DNA from: a bacterium
GTDB lineage: Bacteria > CSSED10-310 > JAJRTK01
Length of the DNA: 8,776 nucleotides
Reading direction: 5' to 3'
Assembly (NCBI GenBank): GCA_024278345.1
Contig: JAJRTK010000436.1
Location: 1-8,776, forward strand
Of the stretch, positions 139 through 8,776 are shown piece after piece. The notes beneath the pieces were generated by a model. The model searched no databases. It was not told the DNA's origin and worked only from the letters and a program-made list of their open reading frames with translations. The translations under genes and the position numbers were made by a program. Numbering within the stretch: position 1 is the stretch's first letter; every line of letters begins with the position of its first letter.

Positions 139-167
139 GTTCGGAGCATGGTCTGGCGGCGTTGACG

Positions 168-214
168 GGCGAGTGTCGGCGGACGGACTGCCGCCGACGC
201 GAGTGGAACTCAAC
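168..214 (+). repeat. 47-bp palindromic repeat, copy A
   Basis: One of three ungapped copies (others at 7606-7652 and 8475-8521, the last inverted). By hand count this copy matches the second at 39 of 47 positions and the third at 40 of 47. The core is a perfect hairpin: gtcggcgg (175-182), loop acggactg, ccgccgac (191-198). The right end of the element overlaps the stop codon of the minus-strand gene at 210-212, so it lies right at that gene's 3' end. There is no T-run, so it is not a standard intrinsic terminator. Confidence 0.75.
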
Positions 215-2732
215 GCTGATCGTGAGATGTTTGGGCTTCAGGCTTGGCTCTGGGTAGCTCGAACCAGAAGGTGCTTCCTTCCCCGAGCTTGCTTTCGAGG
301 TCAAGGCAGCCGCCGTGGGCCTTGACGATTCCTCGTGCGATGGAGAGGCCGATCCCCATGCCTCCGGCCCTGAAACCGTAGGTCCCTGAAAAATGGTGGT
401 CGGTATTTTGGAGGACCCTAAATCTCTCGAAGACTTTGGGGAGGTCTTCCGTGGCAATGCCGATGCCGTTGTCTTGGACTTCGACGCGGAAGTAGCTCAA
501 CTCATCTGCTTCCAGAGGATTCAAGCGCACCTGGATGCGGCCTCCGTCCGGGGTGAACCGGATGGCGTTTTGCAGGAGATTTTGCATGACGGTTCTGAGG
601 GCTTCCGCTTCGGCGTTGACTAGGATCGGTTCTTCCGGCGGTGTCCATTGGAGTTGGAATTGGCGTTCTTCGGCGAAGGGGCGGACGTCTTCGATGACAT
701 CGGTGATCAGGGGGGCCATTTCGAAGAGGCTGTACCGAAGGGGGATCTGGTCCATTCCCACGCGGGAAAGGGTGAGCAGATCCTGGGTGAGAGCGACAAG
801 GCGTTGGGTTTCCCGGAACATGACATCCATGGCCCGTTCTTGTTCCCGGGGGAGTTCGCCCATTCTGCGGCTCCGCATGAGATCCAGGTAGCCAAGGAGG
901 ACGGTGAGAGGAGTCTTCAACTCGTGGGACGCGATGCTGAGAAAATCGCTTTTTCGGCGATCGAGGTCTTGGAGCTCCCGATGGGCCTCTTCCAAACGCT
1001 CCACCAGCGAAGCTTGGTAGATGACGACGGCCGCGTGTCCCGCCAACGCCTGGAAAAAAGCGAAGTCCGCCTCGGTAAAATGGTAAGTCGTGGAGTGGCT
1101 ATCGACGTAGAGGGCGCCAAGGATGGAGCCTCCGGCTTCCAGTGGGGCGCAGAGGACGCTTCTGAGGTTCAGGTCCTGGACGCTGGAGGGAGTTTCAAAA
1201 GATTCGTCGATATTTTGGCCATCTTGGAGGATGAGGAAGACTGGCTCGCCGTCGGCAAAAACTTTTCGCGGGATGGAACGGCTGAAACCGTCCACCCATT
1301 CCAGCGTGCGGCCCCCGCGGGCTCGCGCCAGGCGGTAGCGGTAGGAATGCTTGGCCTGCTGCTTTTCTTTCAGGGAGGGGACGGAGATTCCGGGTCTGAG
1401 CCCATCGCTCAAGCCTCGGCGGATGGCGCGGCTCAGGGCATCTTGAGGTTCGTCGAGGAGCAGGATGATCCCTCGTTCTCCGCCCGTGACTTCCAGGGCC
1501 GCGTCCAGGACAATCGCCAAGAGCTCATCCACGGTTTCGATCTGGGTCAGAGCCCGGTTGACTCGGAGCAGTAGGGAGAAGTTCCGGTGGTCTCTGGCCG
1601 GGTTGCCGGTGAAGACACCGGCCAGCTCATCGATTCGGCGCGTGGTATCTGGCGAGGTGGGATCGAAGAGTGCTACCTGATTCCTGCCGTGGGCTTTTGC
1701 TTGGTAGAGAGCACGGTCGGCGCAGGCGATCAGTTCCTCCGGTGTGCTCGAGCTTGCTCCGAGCTCGCTACAGCCGATACTCACCGTCAGGGCTTCGCAT
1801 CCCCGCGGCACCTCTACCTGCCCCGCCCGCAGCCGGATCTTTTCGGCAATGATCTCGGCGCCCAGCAGATCGGTTGTGGGCAACAGGATCGCGAATTCAT
1901 CGCCACCATAGCGAACGGCCAGATCAGTTTTCCGGAGGGTCAGCCGAAGCATTGCGCCGAAGGATCGGACGACGCCATCTCCGGCTGGATGCCCCCACTG
2001 GTCGTTGATCGCCTTGAAGCGGTCGAGATCGAGCATCAAGAGCGCCAGCGGTTGTGGTCCTACCCGAGCTCGCCGGATTTCCCGTTGCAACAGCGGATCG
2101 AGATGCCAGCGGCTGAAGAGTCCGGTGAGCGGGTCTGTCGTTGCCTCGCGATAAACGCGCTCACCGCGTAAAACGGATTCCCCCAGCATCGCGGACAGCC
2201 GTCCCGCACTTTCGTCGAAGTCGTATACGGCTCCATTCTTGTGGCGAAACTGGAGCAGTCCCAAAAGTCTTGGCGGCGACGAGCCCAGGCGCCGTTCCGG
2301 CTGGTGATGCCGGAGTTGCGACGGTTCCCACAGCAAGACGGCTCCGTGCCGCAAGGGGTCCGCCAAGATCCGGCGCACTTGAAACGCCACGAGTCTGTCC
2401 GGCACTTTGGGTGGCCGACTGGATGCCTTGGAAAGCCAGGAGGCCGCCAGCCTAAGTTCCTGGACTCCCGCGATCTCCTGCCGCTCACCAAGATAAAGAG
2501 TCCCGCTTGCCGCCCCGGTTACATGGCAGCTCATTTCCACGAGAAGCGGGAAGACGGCGTCTCGCCCGGAATCAAAGGAATCCATGAGCTGCGCCACGAG
2601 CTCGATCAGCTCCAGTTGCCCGACCTCGCGTGAGCCGGAACCCCTCGCGGATGCTCCCTCCGCCGGCTGCTCCGTCCGCGCCACCGACAATAGCTCATCG
2701 AGTTTCCCTCGCAGCCCATCTAGTGGGTCCAT
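210..2732 (-). CDS. GAF-GGDEF-GAF sensor histidine kinase (hybrid diguanylate cyclase/kinase)
   Basis: 840-residue soluble signalling protein with no signal peptide or membrane segment. Domains in order: a divergent GAF-like sensor (about 45-190); GGDEF (about 195-357) with DPLTGLFSR at 200-208, metal-binding D235, N243, an intact GGDEF signature at 276-280 and an RKTD inhibitory site at 267-270, five residues before it; a second GAF (about 390-575); a helical linker; HisKA with SHELKTPLT, phospho-acceptor H603; and HATPase with N718/N722, DNGIGI at 754-759, GGMGIGLSI at 790-798 and GEGSTF near 817. All catalytic motifs are intact, so it should both make c-di-GMP and autophosphorylate. The ATG at 2732 has a GGAG ribosome-binding site five bases upstream. 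No receiver domain or partner regulator is encoded in the window, so it looks like an orphan kinase. The two inputs and the phosphorylation target cannot be read from sequence. Confidence 0.95.
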   Translation of the reverse strand: MDPLDGLRGKLDELLSVARTEQPAEGASARGSGSREVGQLELIELVAQLMDSFDSGRDAVFPLLVEMSCHVTGAASGTLYLGERQEIAGVQELRLAASWLSKASSRPPKVPDRLVAFQVRRILADPLRHGAVLLWEPSQLRHHQPERRLGSSPPRLLGLLQFRHKNGAVYDFDESAGRLSAMLGESVLRGERVYREATTDPLTGLFSRWHLDPLLQREIRRARVGPQPLALLMLDLDRFKAINDQWGHPAGDGVVRSFGAMLRLTLRKTDLAVRYGGDEFAILLPTTDLLGAEIIAEKIRLRAGQVEVPRGCEALTVSIGCSELGASSSTPEELIACADRALYQAKAHGRNQVALFDPTSPDTTRRIDELAGVFTGNPARDHRNFSLLLRVNRALTQIETVDELLAIVLDAALEVTGGERGIILLLDEPQDALSRAIRRGLSDGLRPGISVPSLKEKQQAKHSYRYRLARARGGRTLEWVDGFSRSIPRKVFADGEPVFLILQDGQNIDESFETPSSVQDLNLRSVLCAPLEAGGSILGALYVDSHSTTYHFTEADFAFFQALAGHAAVVIYQASLVERLEEAHRELQDLDRRKSDFLSIASHELKTPLTVLLGYLDLMRSRRMGELPREQERAMDVMFRETQRLVALTQDLLTLSRVGMDQIPLRYSLFEMAPLITDVIEDVRPFAEERQFQLQWTPPEEPILVNAEAEALRTVMQNLLQNAIRFTPDGGRIQVRLNPLEADELSYFRVEVQDNGIGIATEDLPKVFERFRVLQNTDHHFSGTYGFRAGGMGIGLSIARGIVKAHGGCLDLESKLGEGSTFWFELPRAKPEAQTSHDQR

Positions 2733-3163
2733 GGTTTCTCCAGCAATTCAGAATATACTTGTGACGATCACCTGGTCCCCGCCCGGTAGTCAACGTCGGA
2801 TGCGCTTGCTTTATTCCCTGCCGATGATTCTTCCCGCCGCCGATTGTTGAGTCGAGCCCAACACTCTTACAACATCGCGCTCCTTTGCGCCAAGATCAAA
2901 CCCGACCCCCAAAAACCGTTCCCTGGACTTGTCCCCGTTCGGCCCGCCGTCTTCTTTTTGGTGCTGAGGTCCGCTCACGTCGGGCGCCGTCCGGCACCCG
3001 CCCCTCGCCATTTTCACCCCTCTTTCCATCGGAAAACACGATGCCCGAATTGTCCCCGAAGCCTACGGGCTCCAGGCCGAGAGCTCAAGGAAGCGTGCGA
3101 CGAGTGAGACCAATCAAATCGTCATGTTTCTGCTTGACAATTCTCCCCGCCAAAACCGTATGC

Positions 3164-3180
3164 ACAGGCATCTTGCCTGT
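3164..3180 (-). repeat. Hairpin repeat with ggcaagatgcc core, copy 2
   Basis: Perfect 7-bp stem acaggca/tgcctgt with 3-base loop tct on the plus strand. Read on the minus strand it is acaggcaagatgcctgt, matching copy 1 at 64-82 in the core ggcaagatgcc, with one compensated stem pair. It lies about 115 bases past the rarA stop codon. Translated on the plus strand it gives TGILPV, which inflates spurious open frames here. Confidence 0.7.
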
Positions 3181-3247
3181 CCAGCGCCGGCCGGGCTTCA
3201 CGGAGTCAGAGAGGAGCCTCCCCCCAATGCTGAAGTTGTAAAACGGG

Positions 3248-3260
3248 TTTGATAGGTCCC
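3248..3260 (+). repeat. 13-bp repeat tttgataggtccc, copy 2
   Basis: Exact copy of 126-138. It is 35 bases past the rarA stop codon and 68 bases from the neighbouring hairpin. Its orientation relative to the adjacent minus-strand gene is the same as in copy 1, although the accompanying hairpin is inverted. Confidence 0.55.
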
Positions 3261-3294
3261 CGACGAGTTGAAACCTCGGCGCCCGGTTTCCTGG

Positions 3295-4656
3295 CTAACG
3301 GTGGTGTGGAACGTCCCCGGGATCGTCAAGGCGACGGCGGATCCCGGCCCTCTTTCTCATCTCCCGAAGGCGTGCGCCCATCTCCTGTTCCAGGCCGCTG
3401 TCGGAGGGAGCATAGTAACATCGGCCGCGGAGAAGATCGGGAAGGAGATCCTCCGTCTGATAGTCGCTTCCGTAGTGGTGGGGATACCGGTACCCTTGTC
3501 CGTAGCCAAGATTTTTCATGAGCCGGGTAGGCGCGTTCAAAAGGCGCTTGGGTATGGGGATCGAACCCAAGCGAAGGAGATCTCGGCGCGCCCGGCCATA
3601 GGCCTTGATGACCGCATTCGATTTTGGGGCGCAAGCAAGGTAGGTCGCCACCTGGGTCAATGCCAGGACGCCTTCGGGCATTCCGATCATCTCGAATGCC
3701 TCAAGCCCGGCCACGGCGATCTGAAGAGCCATGGGATCGGCGTTTCCCACGTCTTCACTTGCGAAGATGAGCATGCGCCGGAGAAGAAACCGAGGATCCT
3801 CGCCCGCCTCGAGCATCCGCGCCAGGTAGTGGCAGGTGGCATCGGGATCGCTTCCCCGCATGCTCTTGATGAAGGCGCTGATCACATTGTAGTGCTCTTC
3901 TCCCCCCTTGTCGTAGAGCAAGATCCGCCGGGCCACGGCCTGTTCGGCGTGGCCAAGGCCGATCCGCTGGTTACCCGCAGTTGCCGCCAGATCGGCGGCC
4001 ACTTCCAGGGAGGTCAAGAGGCGCCTGGCATCTCCGCCGGCCGCCATGACCAAAGTTTGAAGGGCATCGCCATCGATACCGAGCCCAAGATCTCCCAGAC
4101 CGCGGTCCGCATTCAGGAGCGCCTGTTTTGCCACGGCTTCCAGCGCCTCCCCGGGTAGAGGCTTTGTCACCAGCACTTGGCAGCGGGAAAGAAGTGCCGC
4201 ATTCACTTCGAAGGATGGATTTTCGGTGGTGGCCCCCAGGAGGGTGACGATCCCCTGCTCCACGTGGGGCAGGAGCGCATCTTGCTGGGCCTTGTTGAAA
4301 CGGTGGATCTCGTCGATGAAGAGCAAGGTCGCCTTGCCGAACCTCAGTTTCCGGTCGCGGGCCCCGGAGACCGCGGCGCGGATCTCCTTCACGCCCGCCG
4401 CCACCGCCGACATGCGGATGAATTCGGCCCGAAGCTCTCGGCTCAAGATTTCGGCCAGGGTCGTCTTCCCCGTCCCCGGAGGCCCCCAGAACAGCAAAGA
4501 CGGGATTTTGCCGCGCCGTAGAAGCCGCCGTAGAAGCCCGGATTCCCCCGCCAGATGGGCCTGTCCCACGACGTCGTCCAGCACCCTGGGACGCATCCGC
4601 TCCGCCAGGGGCTTTCCCAGGGTGGATTGGTCGAACGTGGATTCGAAGAGGTCCAA
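3295..4656 (-). CDS. rarA: Replication-associated recombination protein A (RarA/MgsA, AAA+ ATPase)
   Basis: RarA is a AAA+ ATPase related to clamp loaders and RuvB. It acts at stalled replication forks and binds SSB and DNA ends. Counting from the upstream GTG at 4692, the frame shows PLAERMRPRVLDDVVGQ (27-43), Walker A GPPGTGKTT (70-78), Walker B LLFIDEIHRFNK (DE at 127-128), sensor 1 GATTENPSF (153-161), arginine finger in LSRC (R170), sensor 2 GGDARRLL (219-226), and the family C-terminal signature YDKGGEEHYNVISAFIKS. This is the normal family length. I prefer the TTG at 4656 (453 residues), because AAGGA lies seven bases upstream and the protein then starts LDLFES, as is usual in the family. 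The GTG at 4692 has only a weak GGGTAAG. The gene is divergent from the dehydratase, and a 20-bp palindrome lies in its upstream region. Nothing appears truncated. Confidence 0.95.
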   Translation of the reverse strand: MDLFESTFDQSTLGKPLAERMRPRVLDDVVGQAHLAGESGLLRRLLRRGKIPSLLFWGPPGTGKTTLAEILSRELRAEFIRMSAVAAGVKEIRAAVSGARDRKLRFGKATLLFIDEIHRFNKAQQDALLPHVEQGIVTLLGATTENPSFEVNAALLSRCQVLVTKPLPGEALEAVAKQALLNADRGLGDLGLGIDGDALQTLVMAAGGDARRLLTSLEVAADLAATAGNQRIGLGHAEQAVARRILLYDKGGEEHYNVISAFIKSMRGSDPDATCHYLARMLEAGEDPRFLLRRMLIFASEDVGNADPMALQIAVAGLEAFEMIGMPEGVLALTQVATYLACAPKSNAVIKAYGRARRDLLRLGSIPIPKRLLNAPTRLMKNLGYGQGYRYPHHYGSDYQTEDLLPDLLRGRCYYAPSDSGLEQEMGARLREMRKRAGIRRRLDDPGDVPHHR

Positions 4657-4722
4657 GAGCCTATCCTTCCGGCTACAGGTCTGCGTTTGCACCTTACCCG
4701 GCCGCTATGCCGCCGACAAGGT

Positions 4723-4742
4723 GCTGGTAGCATGCTACCAGC
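4723..4742. promoter_or_regulatory. Perfect 20-bp palindrome, candidate operator
   Basis: Left half gctggtagca and right half tgctaccagc are exact reverse complements with no spacer. It lies in the region between divergent rarA and the dehydratase gene. Symmetry of this length without a loop suits a dimeric repressor better than an RNA hairpin. A 7-bp inverted repeat, agcgacc (4740-4746) and ggtcgct (4780-4786), overlaps its right edge. No regulator gene is adjacent, and I cannot name the protein. Confidence 0.5.
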
Positions 4743-4757
4743 GACCACTTTTGTAAA
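4729..4757 (-). promoter_or_regulatory. Possible rarA promoter overlapping the palindrome
   Basis: Read on the minus strand, TTTACA (4757-4752, five of six matches to the -35 consensus) is followed after exactly 17 bases by CATGCT (4734-4729, three of six matches to the -10). The weak -10 lies inside the palindrome. If this is the promoter, a protein bound to the palindrome would block RNA polymerase. This is inference from spacing; the -10 match is poor. Confidence 0.25.
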
Positions 4758-4854
4758 GTTTAAACCAGGCACTTTGACAGGTCGCTATCCTCGTGCTTGA
4801 GTTCCTTGGCGGTCGCCCGGAACGGCCGAAAACTCCAAGGTGAGGATGTCACCC

Positions 4855-5820
4855 ATGCCAACGGAAAGCCCCGATCTCTTCGCCGCCATCGTCGGGGCTG
4901 AGAACCGCATCCGCGGGCAGGTCCTCAAGACGCCGGCCCTCCATTCGCCCCACTTGAGCCGCCTCTCCGGCGGCCGGGTTTTCCTGAAGCTGGAAAACCT
5001 CCAGTGGACTGGCTCGTTCAAGATCCGAGGCGCCATGAACAAGATCCTGGGCCTCTCGGATCTCCAGAAGGAGCAAGGTGTCGTGACCGCTTCCACGGGA
5101 AACCACGCCCTCGCCGTGGCCTGGGCCTTGCGCCGCGCCGGCTGCCGGGGCACCGTGGTGCTCCCTCTCCGGGTCTCTCCCAGCAAGTTGGAGGAACTGG
5201 AACTTTCAGGCGTGTCCCTGGTGCGGCACGGGCGGGATTCGGCGGAAACGGAGAAGTGGGCACGCCAATTGGCCCGGGAGAGAGGGCGGATCTACGTTTC
5301 CCCTTACAACGACTTCGAGATCATCGCCGGGCAGGGGACCATCGGTCTCGAACTGGCCCGCCAGGTGCCGGATCTGGAGGTTCTCTTCGCCACCGTGGGT
5401 GGAGGCGGCTTGATGAGCGGCGTGGGAACGGCCTTGAAGAGCCTTTTTCCCGCCGTGGAACTCGTGGGCTGCTGGCCAAGGAATTCGCCCGTGCTCTACG
5501 AATCTCTCCGGGCGGGGCGCATCCTGGAGATGGAGTCGGCGCCCACGCTGTCGGACGGTTCGGCGGGCGGCGTGGAGCCCGATACCGTGACGTTCGAGTT
5601 TTGCCGACAGCTTTTGGATGAGTCGGTCCTGGTGGAGGAGGAAGAGATCCAACAGGCGATCCGCCTGATCCTGGAGAAGCACCGGCTCGTCGTCGAGGGC
5701 GCGGCGGGCGTAGCGGTGGCGGCCTTTCTTCAGCAGATCGAGCGCTACCGGGGCCGGACCGTCGTCTTGCTTCTTTGCGGAGGGAACATTTCCTTAAAAG
5801 ATCTGAAAACCTGCCTCTGA
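4855..5820 (+). CDS. PLP-dependent serine/threonine dehydratase-like enzyme
   Basis: Fold-type II PLP enzyme of the threonine dehydratase/serine racemase group, 321 residues. Its expected reaction is deamination of a hydroxy amino acid to a 2-oxo acid plus ammonia. Visible motifs: SFKIRGA with PLP lysine K56, STGNHALA (80-87) contacting the cofactor, phosphate-binding GGGGL (182-186), and CGGNI near the C-terminus (308-312). It lacks the C-terminal ACT-like regulatory domain of biosynthetic IlvA, so it resembles the short catabolic or racemase-type enzymes. The stretch TLSDGSAGGVEP and the terminal CGGNIS differ from what I recall of classic threonine dehydratases, so the substrate is uncertain. 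Starts at 4840 (GTG), 4846 and 4855 share a frame. I chose ATG 4855, which has GAGG nine bases upstream; 4846 is also plausible, with AAGG five bases upstream. It is divergent from rarA, with a consensus TTGACA at 4774-4779 but no good -10. Confidence 0.9.
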   Translation: MPTESPDLFAAIVGAENRIRGQVLKTPALHSPHLSRLSGGRVFLKLENLQWTGSFKIRGAMNKILGLSDLQKEQGVVTASTGNHALAVAWALRRAGCRGTVVLPLRVSPSKLEELELSGVSLVRHGRDSAETEKWARQLARERGRIYVSPYNDFEIIAGQGTIGLELARQVPDLEVLFATVGGGGLMSGVGTALKSLFPAVELVGCWPRNSPVLYESLRAGRILEMESAPTLSDGSAGGVEPDTVTFEFCRQLLDESVLVEEEEIQQAIRLILEKHRLVVEGAAGVAVAAFLQQIERYRGRTVVLLLCGGNISLKDLKTCL

Positions 5821-6030
5821 ACCCCCATGCCGTCGCCCTTTCCAGGGGTGTTTCTCCAGCCGCCGGTCCCAGCCCCGGGACCACCCTGAAACGGCGAGAA
5901 ACCACCCGCTTTCGGCACTGATGAACCACTTTTGAAAATCGCGGGCGCTCCCGGTCTTGTTTCCGGACCCATGGGACGGTAGCTTTAAACCGCGCTTCCC
6001 CTACCCCCAACGAACCATCAAGGAGACGCC

Positions 6031-7599
6031 ATGAAACCACGACTGGCCCTTGGAGCCGCGACCCTGGCTTTGCTCACTGTTTGGGTTCCTTTCTCCAGAG
6101 CCGATTCACCTCTCACGTCCATCCGGTTTCACCAGGCTTACCGTGCCGAGCTAGCGGCGGCACTGGGCGATTCCTCTTCTCCGCGGGGTCCGGGAACAGA
6201 GAATCCCCCCGCTCCGGAGCAGATCATTGACTTTCTGGTGGGCGACCACCCCGCGGCCTTGGAGGCCGCCGCCGTCAACTCGTTGGGCTGGAAGTTCGAA
6301 GGCCAGAAGAACGGGCAGCTCTTTTTGGCCGCTCTGGCGGAGAAGAAGGGCCTTGACCCGGAAATCCTGGACTTCCGGGACTTGAGACCGGCCGATCTTT
6401 TGGTTTTGGGCTACTTGCTGGCCATGGACGACTACTTCGAGCTGGGGCCGCTTGTCTCCAATGCTTCGGGATTACGGGGCGCACCGGCCATCGATCTTTT
6501 GAGCCGGGCCGTCGTCCAGGAGCCGCGGAATTTCACCTACCGCATCATCCTGGCCCTGGTCCGGGCGCAGCTTGAGATGGAGAGTTCTTTTTGCGCGGTC
6601 TACCAGAATCTGTCGGCGGTCTTGACGGCGTTCCCCGAATCGGAGCGGGATCTGAAGCCCGAGGCCGTCTTCGAGATCATGAGCTACATCGGGGATTACC
6701 GGGATTCCTGCGTGACGCCGGAGACCCGCGCCGCCGAGGGCCCCATCGAGGATCCGGCGTTCGACGAAATCTACGTGGTCACCGAATACCGTGACTGGAT
6801 CGCCACCGGTACGCAGGTGGGGATCGCCCTTTGGAACAAGCAGAGCCGGCAGCTCGATTCCGTCCGTCCCGGGGGCATCACCACGAGCCTTTTGGTCTGG
6901 AATGACCAGCTTTGGGCGGCGTCCAGCCAGCAGGTCCAGCGCTATGATGGCCGGGAGTGGAGGCTCTACCTGGATCGTCCCGCGGCGACGACTTCCTTTT
7001 TGCTGGTGGCATCCCGCCATGGAGATTTGCTGGCGATCCACGGCGGGAAGACCTACCGCTACGATGCCATGGCCGACCAATTTCAGTCGGTGAACCCAGT
7101 TTTTCCGAACCACCCGGTTCCCCTACATTCCTGCCTGGTTCGCAAGAACGGCCAGGTCTGGGGCATCGACTTCATGACGTCGATCCTGGCGGGCGCACGG
7201 GTCATCGGTCTTCAGAGCTACGAGTATCCGGGCAGGGACCCGCGTTCCCTGATGGAAGACGCAACGGGCCGCCTCTGGATCGCCGATTTCACCGACGGCT
7301 TCTTCCGGTACGACGACCGGGAGCAAAGGTTTGTCCGGGACCCGGTTGTGGAAGCGAAGGCCTCGGCCCTGGCCACCGATCCCGAATCCGGCACCACCTA
7401 CTTCCTGCACTACACTGATGGGCTCTATGTCAAAGAAAAAACTGGAAAAACGGAATCGATCCTCCTTCCGGATCTCCAGTACATGCGGGACCTGTATCTG
7501 GATTCCGACGGAGTGTTCTGGATTGCCGGCTGGACCCAGCTCCTCCGTCTTTCGAAGGAAGATGGAGAGTGGAAGAAAACAAGCCTGAGTGTGAGATGA
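6031..7599 (+). CDS. Exported protein of unknown function, helical N-terminal half and propeller-like C-terminal half
   Basis: 522 residues. A clear signal peptide (basic MKPR, hydrophobic stretch to about 21, then FSRA before D25) suggests Sec export to the periplasm or beyond. There is no lipobox. Residues 30-230 look alpha-helical and repeat-like, with two cysteines (C188, C227) that could form a disulfide. From about 245 on, recurring strand-rich units resemble beta-propeller blades of the two-component-regulator or WD type: WNDQLWAASSQQVQRYDG, GDLLAIHGGKTYRYD, NGQVWGIDFM, TGRLWIADFTDGFFRYDD, TTYFLHYTDGLYV and DGVFWIAGWTQLLRL. I count about six, so a complete propeller is plausible. There is no kinase, transmembrane helix or enzyme motif after the propeller, unlike hybrid sensor proteins that carry such repeats. 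The ATG at 6031 is preceded by AAGGAG with a five-base spacer. I do not recognise the family. Confidence 0.85.
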   Translation: MKPRLALGAATLALLTVWVPFSRADSPLTSIRFHQAYRAELAAALGDSSSPRGPGTENPPAPEQIIDFLVGDHPAALEAAAVNSLGWKFEGQKNGQLFLAALAEKKGLDPEILDFRDLRPADLLVLGYLLAMDDYFELGPLVSNASGLRGAPAIDLLSRAVVQEPRNFTYRIILALVRAQLEMESSFCAVYQNLSAVLTAFPESERDLKPEAVFEIMSYIGDYRDSCVTPETRAAEGPIEDPAFDEIYVVTEYRDWIATGTQVGIALWNKQSRQLDSVRPGGITTSLLVWNDQLWAASSQQVQRYDGREWRLYLDRPAATTSFLLVASRHGDLLAIHGGKTYRYDAMADQFQSVNPVFPNHPVPLHSCLVRKNGQVWGIDFMTSILAGARVIGLQSYEYPGRDPRSLMEDATGRLWIADFTDGFFRYDDREQRFVRDPVVEAKASALATDPESGTTYFLHYTDGLYVKEKTGKTESILLPDLQYMRDLYLDSDGVFWIAGWTQLLRLSKEDGEWKKTSLSVR

Positions 7600-7605
7600 G
7601 CGAAG

Positions 7606-7652
7606 GGCGAGTGGCGGCGGACGGATTGCCGCCGCCGGGAGCGGAGTACAAC
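7606..7652 (+). repeat. 47-bp palindromic repeat, copy B
   Basis: Begins seven bases after the stop codon of the exported-protein gene, between two convergent genes. Perfect hairpin: ggcggcgg (7613-7620), loop acggattg, ccgccgcc (7629-7636). Compared with copy A, the second stem pair is g-c instead of t-a, both arms changing together. By hand count it matches the inverted third copy at 40 of 47 positions. Its position could let it act as a bidirectional transcription block, but no T-run follows. Confidence 0.75.
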
Positions 7653-7707
7653 TTGGGAAGAGAAAACGATGATCCAGGGCATGGCTTGACGCGGGGTTCT
7701 CCCCCCC

Positions 7708-8205
7708 TCAAGTTTCCAGGCTGCTTTTTGCTTCGGAAGCGGCGCCAGCCTGCGCCGACAGGTGCTTCACCAGGGCCCAGACCGAGTCGAGGATCTCGTC
7801 CCGGCAGACAAGATAGACGCGGTACGACTGCATGTAGGGATCAGCGATGTCGCGGTCGGGAGCGTGGCGGTCCCAATGGGTGAGCATCCGGGTTTTCTCC
7901 GCGGCCTCGGGATCCAGGCCAAAGACGTAGTCCAGGTGTTGCCCGGTAAGGCAGAGAATCAGATGAGCCTTCTCCACGTCTTCCCCGGTGAGCTGCCTTG
8001 CGCGGTGGCCGCTGATGTCGAGCCCGAACTCAGCCATGGCCGATTCTGCTTCGGCGGTTGCCGGCCAGCCAACGACAGCCCCGGTGCCTCGGCTTTCCAC
8101 TCTCCATTGGGTGAGTCCCGCTTTCGCCAGGTGCGTCTTGAGGAGTCCCTCGGCCATGGGGGAACGGCACAGGTTTCCCGTGCAGACGACGAGCATCAGT
8201 GGCAT
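7708..8205 (-). CDS. Low-molecular-weight protein tyrosine phosphatase (Wzb/arsenate reductase-like fold)
   Basis: Cytosolic phosphatase of 165 residues, a normal family length. The P-loop VCTGNLCRS places nucleophile C8 and arginine R14 in the C-x5-R-S signature, and the general-acid loop is DPY at 122-124, so it should be catalytically active. In other bacteria these enzymes dephosphorylate BY-kinases that control polysaccharide export, or act on arginine-phosphorylated proteins. Related ArsC proteins reduce arsenate but lack this exact acid loop and carry extra redox cysteines. No tyrosine kinase, capsule or ars gene is in the window, so the target is unknown. The frame is open back to 8364, but I start at ATG 8205: the protein then begins two residues before the conserved LMLVVCTGN strand, and a purine-rich AAAGAGA lies just upstream. 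The extra 53 residues have no family match. The gene converges on the exported-protein gene. Confidence 0.92.
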   Translation of the reverse strand: MPLMLVVCTGNLCRSPMAEGLLKTHLAKAGLTQWRVESRGTGAVVGWPATAEAESAMAEFGLDISGHRARQLTGEDVEKAHLILCLTGQHLDYVFGLDPEAAEKTRMLTHWDRHAPDRDIADPYMQSYRVYLVCRDEILDSVWALVKHLSAQAGAASEAKSSLET

Positions 8206-8474
8206 GGCGATCTCTTTCTTTTGGAGAGAAGAGGAGTCATCCGTGGCCCCGGCAGATTGAAACAACTGCCAAGAGAGTTTTATGGCGATTGAACTTCTTT
8301 CTAGCAGAACCCGGAGATGGCGGGCAAACAAGGGTTGATTCGACGAAGCCCTTTTATGAGCCATTCATCGCCAGAGATCGATGACCCCGGTAGAAAAAAA
8401 CCGGCTCAAAGTGGCGGATCTCCAGTCATCTTTTCCCGGTGAGCGGTTCTTTGGGCAAGGCCTTCTTTTTTTCA
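8206..8474. other. Upstream region of the phosphatase gene, non-coding
   Basis: The upstream extension of the phosphatase frame (to 8364) and a plus-strand frame starting at 8381 both run through here. Neither has domain signal or a convincing ribosome-binding site. A small A-rich-loop hairpin ccggt/accgg (8387-8391 and 8400-8404) and a T-run (near 8465-8472) are visible. I see no clear -35/-10 pair for the phosphatase gene. Confidence 0.45.
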
Positions 8475-8521
8475 GTTGTGTTCCGCTCCCGTCGGCGGCA
8501 GTCCGTCCGCCGCCGTCCGCC
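8475..8521 (-). repeat. 47-bp palindromic repeat, copy C (inverted)
   Basis: Same element as at 168-214 and 7606-7652, in the opposite orientation. On the plus strand its stem arms are gtcggcgg (8491-8498) and ccgccgcc (8507-8514). One arm is the copy A version and the other the copy B version, leaving a single mismatch at the second pair. It lies 48 bases before the tandem array and is not next to a gene end within this window. Confidence 0.72.
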
Positions 8522-8543
8522 TTTCACGGCATCGTCCATCGGT

Positions 8544-8569: not shown

Positions 8570-8776
8570 CTCGAAGGGTCACGTTAGCGGGACTCGAAGG
8601 GTCACGTTTGCGTGACTCGAAGGGTCGCGTTTGCGGGACTCGAAGGGTCACGTTTGCGGGACTCGAAGGGTCACGTTTGCGGGACTCGAAGGGTCACGTT
8701 TGCGGGACTCGAAGGGTCACGTTTGCGGGACTCGAAGGGTCACGTTTGCGGGACTCGAAGGGTCACGTTTGCGGGA
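8570..8776 (+). repeat. Tandem array of nine 23-bp units, cut by the window edge
   Basis: Nine contiguous units of exactly 23 bp with no spacers, each starting ctcgaagggtc and ending gcggga, except unit 2, which ends gcgtga. Units 4-9 (8639-8776) are identical. Variants occur only at the left: unit 1 has ttagcg for tttgcg, unit 2 has cgtga for cggga, and unit 3 has gtcgcg for gtcacg. Each unit can fold as gtcacg-tttg-cgggac with one mismatch; in unit 2 (gtcacg-tttg-cgtgac) the stem is perfect. The array reaches the last base of the window, so the true copy number is unknown. It is not CRISPR, because there are no spacers. Confidence 0.95.

Follow-up and report, generated by a model that had tools for sequence, protein, structure and literature searches.

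Among the bacterial miniature inverted-repeat transposable elements (MITEs), ERIC reaches up to 711 copies in Photorhabdus, and the truncated copies of QMITE2 grow to resemble repetitive extragenic palindromes, or REPs (PMC10969869). The defining features of REPs and of the REP-associated tyrosine transposases (RAYTs) have been set out (PMC2817692), and the element analysed here lacks them. It comes from a stretch of 8,776 nt (hereafter, the window; contig C375, GenBank JAJRTK010000436.1) of the draft genome of a bacterium of the GTDB lineage CSSED10-310 (6.06 Mb in 550 contigs, 87.9% complete). In a preliminary description of the window, three palindromes, A, B and C, were presented as copies of a 47-bp element. 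The three palindromes are indeed there, in the orientations given, and the stem is perfect in A and B and has one mismatch in C, but 47 bp does not hold as the unit: the palindrome is the centre of an element of 142-172 bp. We put at about 0.88 the probability that the palindromes belong at the centre of MITEs, a family whose complete copies have this length and which is moved in trans by an IS1-family DDE transposase.

Ends, target duplications and the probable partner insertion sequence

The complete copies (142-172 bp) are non-coding and contain no transposase gene. Alignment of the flanks defines the termini: each is about 23 bp long, and one is the inverted repeat of the other; the youngest (CA) subfamily has GGTGGTGCTCCAGCCCTAGGGCA on the left and CGCCCTAAAAGAAGAGCACGACC on the right. 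The complete element consists, in order, of the 23-bp left inverted repeat, a left arm, the GGCGAG-YR.C part of a shell, an apical hairpin, the other part of the shell (G.YG-N-GAGCGGAAnnCAAC), an A-rich tail and the 23-bp right inverted repeat. The shell of the central hairpin is thus GGCGAG...GAGCGGAA, and in the core profile, which was built from 66 copies, conservation spans GGCGAG, the stem and GAGCGGAACnCAAC, after which comes the A-rich tail.

A perfect 8-bp target duplication brackets 14 of the 39 distinct elements that have both inverted repeats (CGAATCTG, CGGATTTG, CAATTTTT and GGCCTTCC are examples), and none of the 39 has a perfect duplication of 5-7 or 9-11 bp; the mean duplication match is 0.667 at length 8 versus 0.22-0.36 at the other lengths tested (5-11). 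Exact 8-bp duplications are a mark of DDE transposition. Target duplications of IS1 are 8-9 bp long, a range that includes the 8 bp of the present element.

The search with the left end of the MITE returned 128 sites at 3 mismatches or fewer, some of which are ends of an insertion sequence (IS) rather than of MITEs. The left end of this IS, GGTGGTGCTCTACCCCTAGGGCA, is identical to that of the MITE in 21 of 23 positions, the best agreement among 20,000 shuffled 23-mers being 16. On contigs C156, C187 and C549, the IS left ends are identical across 115 bp and carry a promoter-like sequence plus an ATG. The right end, TGCCCTAACYATAGAGCACCACC, lies directly 3' of a reading frame with the IS1-transposase domain (PF03400). 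This frame (INTAFIERQNGTDRTHNARKARKTLCFSKD...) precedes the right ends on C548 and C58, shorter pieces are found on C273 and C545, and on C474 the IS is internally deleted but retains both of its ends. The C-terminal piece of the transposase matches PF03400 weakly, with 23.2 bits as a protein (cut-off 24.1) and 26.4 bits, over the cut-off, by genome search; a complete relative in another genome has transpos_IS1 of NCBIfam and IS1 of Pfam as its best matches, although the score with transpos_IS1, 69.9 bits, is under the cut-off of 100.

Because of the 23-bp inverted repeats, the 8-bp duplications and the IS with matching ends, we consider the element to be a MITE, not a REP. From the near identity of the ends, we infer that the IS1-type IS of the same genome moves the MITE. 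Under this scenario, the IS would supply the IS1-family DDE transposase, and the latter, acting in trans, would cut and insert the MITE with an 8-bp duplication of the target; the MITE would have spread in this manner through intergenic DNA to about one copy per 9 kb. The central hairpin would have been kept either since its folded + strand acts, as RNA or as a movement site, or through homogenisation of the copies by one another.

Several facts weigh against this scenario. No IS copy is readable in full, as the copies break where contigs end, and the match of the transposase piece is weak. The target duplications are seen in the young CA subfamily but have decayed in the older TG one, of which A, B and C are members. 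Furthermore, the uniform decay expected of a dead MITE fails to account for the intact core, which is perfect over 41 nt in 27 of 93 TG copies.

A partner of the IS1595 type was also considered, with a PF12762 gene piece located about 130 bp from a young MITE on C322, and was dropped because MITE ends do not bracket this piece and do agree with those of the IS1-type IS. Pieces of IS1595-type transposases (PF12762) were seen twice, at L154 2713-3202 and L155 4089-4436, one of them near a young MITE but not bracketed by its ends.

Copies in the window and across the genome

The window contains four copies, including one (D) that the preliminary description had missed:

152..214, + strand: copy A, decayed MITE (profile score 44.9 bits, model 58-120 of 210)
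168-173, + strand: GGCGAG of the shell of copy A
175-182 / 191-198, + strand: stem of copy A, GTCGGCGG / CCGCCGAC
2952..3048, - strand: copy D (profile score 46.3 bits, model 41-133)
7602..7676, + strand: copy B, decayed MITE (profile score 48.1 bits, model 70-145), with the central hairpin arms GGCGGCGG/CCGCCGCC
8451..8531, - strand: copy C, decayed MITE, stem with a G.A mismatch (profile score 51.9 bits, model 64-145)

Copy A has no recognisable outer inverted repeats, and the stop codon of the open reading frame 6031-7599 precedes the start of copy B by 2 bp. Copy D combines the common shell with another palindromic stem (CGGGTGCC-GGAC-GGCGCCCG) and is more divergent than A-C. Could these copies be free-standing hairpins? 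This possibility was rejected given that the flanks of nearly all copies retain weak mutual similarity, which exceeds the 95% null in 70 of 71 window-type copies. The window-type copies are thus worn full elements, and we infer that old copies such as A-D once were complete.

A profile search of 1.13 Mb of the genome, sampled by regions, brought up many relatives with a common shell and different interiors. The apical hairpin measures 18, 16-17 or 41-42 nt, the 18-nt interiors being of the GGCGGACGGAYTGCCGCC or GGGCGCCGGATGGCGCCC type and the 16-17-nt interior being GCGAGCGGCYGCGAGC, and the shell types TG..CG, CA..TG, TA..TG and GG..CC combine variously with the interiors, so that parts must have been exchanged or changed independently. 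One MITE copy (L132 2590-2830) has about 80 nt extra in the apical hairpin, an insert bearing the inverted repeat GGGTCACCGTTCACGGAGTACGGTGACCC.

The core CGGCGGACGGAYTGCCGCCG occurs 295 times (145 + 150) in the 6.06 Mb genome at 2 mismatches or fewer, against 0 occurrences of the reversed pattern across the whole genome under the same threshold, so these matches are not due to chance. In 346 kb chosen regardless of matches, 39 elements were found, which translates into about 680 per genome, or roughly one copy per 9 kb. The core is essentially absent from the 59 other genomes searched, and among 8 genomes of the phylum, source genome included, the element is confined to the source, apart from one marginal 30-bp match in another genome; searches of plasmid and viral sequences yielded no matches to the element. 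Many contigs (C45, C59, C156, C187, C273, C456, C545 and C549) have ends that fall inside MITE or IS copies, and these repeats are probably behind much of the fragmentation of the assembly.

With gene calls from a small home-made codon-usage gene finder, which reproduces the genes of the window, only 4 of 151 elements fall within genes. The intergenic elements divide into 68 tandem, 32 divergent and 24 convergent, for 80.7, 49.5 and 20.6 kb of intergenic DNA, respectively (55/26/19% of elements versus 53/33/14% of intergenic bases). Placement is intergenic and follows intergenic length, and gene ends are not clearly favoured; the suggestion that the element sits at gene ends, made from the copies of the window, is not upheld across the genome sample. 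In tandem gaps, 55 elements are co-directional with the genes and 33 are opposed (p = 0.025), a weak bias that depends on the home-made gene finder.

The window holds further repeats. A second MITE-like family is represented at 1-140 and about 3162-3262. Its ends are CGGGACCTATCARAT ... ATTTGATAGGTCCCG, and they enclose a GGCAAGATGCC hairpin; one 29-bp segment of this family was found 67 times, 47 of them perfect, with 0 in the reversed control, and the family is therefore much younger than the MITE studied here. A 23-bp unit, CTCGAAGGGTCACGTTTGCGGGA, forms a tandem array at 8570-8776 that runs off the contig end.

Stem pairing and the conserved core

In 122 distinct 41-nt cores with ten stem pairs each, 88.6% of the cells are standard pairs, compared to 21-64% with one arm slid and 74% after shuffling. 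Double-sided stem changes number 142, whereas shuffling gives 47 on average and 67 at most; related copies not being independent, such counts overstate the number of events. The proposal that the fold is constrained, originally made from three copies, is thereby supported genome-wide. The strongest covariation is in the second pair, G-C (100) / A-T (55), and there are further double-sided changes higher up the stem (C-G/G-C and G-C/C-G). The fate of the compensated pair with a half-changed intermediate, another element of the preliminary description, is mixed: the pattern is present in the three sequences, but genome-wide the commonest state of this pair is a G.A mismatch (96 of 171 copies, against 55 with G-C and 4 with T-A), so that copy C has the usual form rather than an intermediate one. 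The GA/AG internal loop is retained in about 90% of the copies. Outside the T.G pair that is subfamily-wide, there are 38 G-T wobbles versus 12 A-C mismatches, as would be the case if it is the + strand that folds. RNAalifold, applied to 26 full-length copies, supports the inverted-repeat and core pairs with a small covariation term (-0.62), and the RNA folding of single copies is unexceptional (z from -1.1 to -1.5). Rfam covariance models gave 0 matches in the window at E up to 1 and 0 at the gathering score in four element-rich loci.

The young complete copies differ from the consensus by 5-6% in the shell and by 14-17% in the arms, and their inverted repeats are 9-12% off the consensus even though the copies were selected for them; for core versus flanks in the young copies, the shell stands at 5-6% against 14-20%. 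Among nearest relatives, the flanks diverge by 30-37% and the core by 6-10%, a contrast that is exaggerated because the copies were found largely via the core. Of the 27 TG copies with a perfect core, 16 have no recognisable inverted repeat on either side. Perfect cores beside lost ends suggest either that the hairpin is constrained, perhaps as RNA, or that copies homogenise one another.

The rival explanation that survives best leaves the mode of movement as above and adds that the central hairpin has a host function, for instance, as an RNA structure in transcripts or as a binding site, and that selection has preserved it at many loci since the element died. The far better conservation of the core than of the flanks and the perfect cores at sites where both ends are gone speak for such a function, and so do the conserved G.A/A.G internal loop, the excess of G-T over A-C that indicates a folded + strand, and the slight co-directional excess at tandem genes. 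However, this orientation bias is weak and rests on the home-made gene finder, detection partly through the core favours intact cores, and gene conversion among hundreds of copies could produce an equal outcome. We regard a host function as possible but doubtful. Somewhat less likely is a more specific version, in which the central hairpin GGCGAG-YR.C-variable stem-G.YG-N-GAGCGGAA, with its tandem G.A/A.G internal loop, would be a functional RNA module that the MITE carries and spreads, that selection retains in hundreds of intergenic locations where the transposon ends decayed long ago, and whose apical modules are exchanged between subfamilies. If the conservation does reflect selection, the family would plainly exemplify how a mobile element can sow a structured motif throughout a bacterial genome.

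Relation to known systems

A REP-type origin, in which the hairpin would be mobilised by a RAYT (Y1 HUH family) of the genome, appears highly improbable. There is one RAYT-like gene in the genome (C390; 67.3 bits with NF047646, 30.2 bits with PF01797), and the TG subfamily has GTGG directly before the stem, which resembles the GT(A/G)G head of REPs (PMC2817692). However, this gene is not bracketed by copies of the element, the best neighbour match with half-element profiles scoring 5.9 bits and lying after the stop codon; GTGG is missing from the CA and GG subfamilies, which have GCAG or GGGG instead; and the complete copies bear 23-bp inverted repeats and 8-bp duplications, which are not products of Y1 transposition. 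Thus, the check for a linked RAYT that had been proposed turned out negative: the sole RAYT-like gene lacks flanking copies, and the ends of the element are of the DDE type. The same gene lies between the ends TTTGATAGGTGCCCC and GGGAACCTATCAAA of the second MITE-like family (L031 976-992 and 2033-2049) and includes, at L031 1307-1424, a palindromic repeat, GGGCGGGTTCGGAACCCGCCCCTAC, that occurs twice in frame and is translated as GSEPAPTQPDTTDRA.

Intrinsic transcription terminators, or some other gene-end signal, are equally improbable: copies A and B do touch stop codons, but an A-rich tail rather than a T run comes after the hairpin, placement is governed by intergenic length with both orientations at tandem genes, and the complete copies are transposable elements. 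An attC-like (integron) reading of CAAC was rejected, there being no partner core site and no arrays.

Under the MITE reading that we prefer, the family is litter of a DDE transposon with a partner IS rather than a REP system. The element resembles the bacterial MITEs (Correia/CREE, ERIC, RUP/BOX and the Coxiella QMITEs) in that it is shorter than 500 bp, non-coding, intergenic, foldable and present in hundreds of copies, with terminal inverted repeats and target duplications; it differs from them as a new sequence family, in an undescribed lineage, with IS1-family-like ends, a modular apical hairpin, and a core that is retained while the inverted repeats decay. To the IS1-family IS it is tied by the 21/23 end identity and by the putative IS1-type DDE domain beside the IS end, whereas it has no transposase and only the ends in common (a type II MITE). 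With the REPs, or the bacterial interspersed mosaic elements (BIMEs), and their RAYTs, it shares the high-copy, GC-rich intergenic hairpin and the compensatory changes, in contrast to which there are here no inverted copies flanking a RAYT and no constant GTAG-type head, and inverted repeats and a target duplication are present. The element is of an ordinary kind but for one trait, the integrity of its central hairpin in copies that otherwise decay, and with some 700 copies in several subfamilies, old and young, it offers a data set on why the hairpin of a dead transposon persists.
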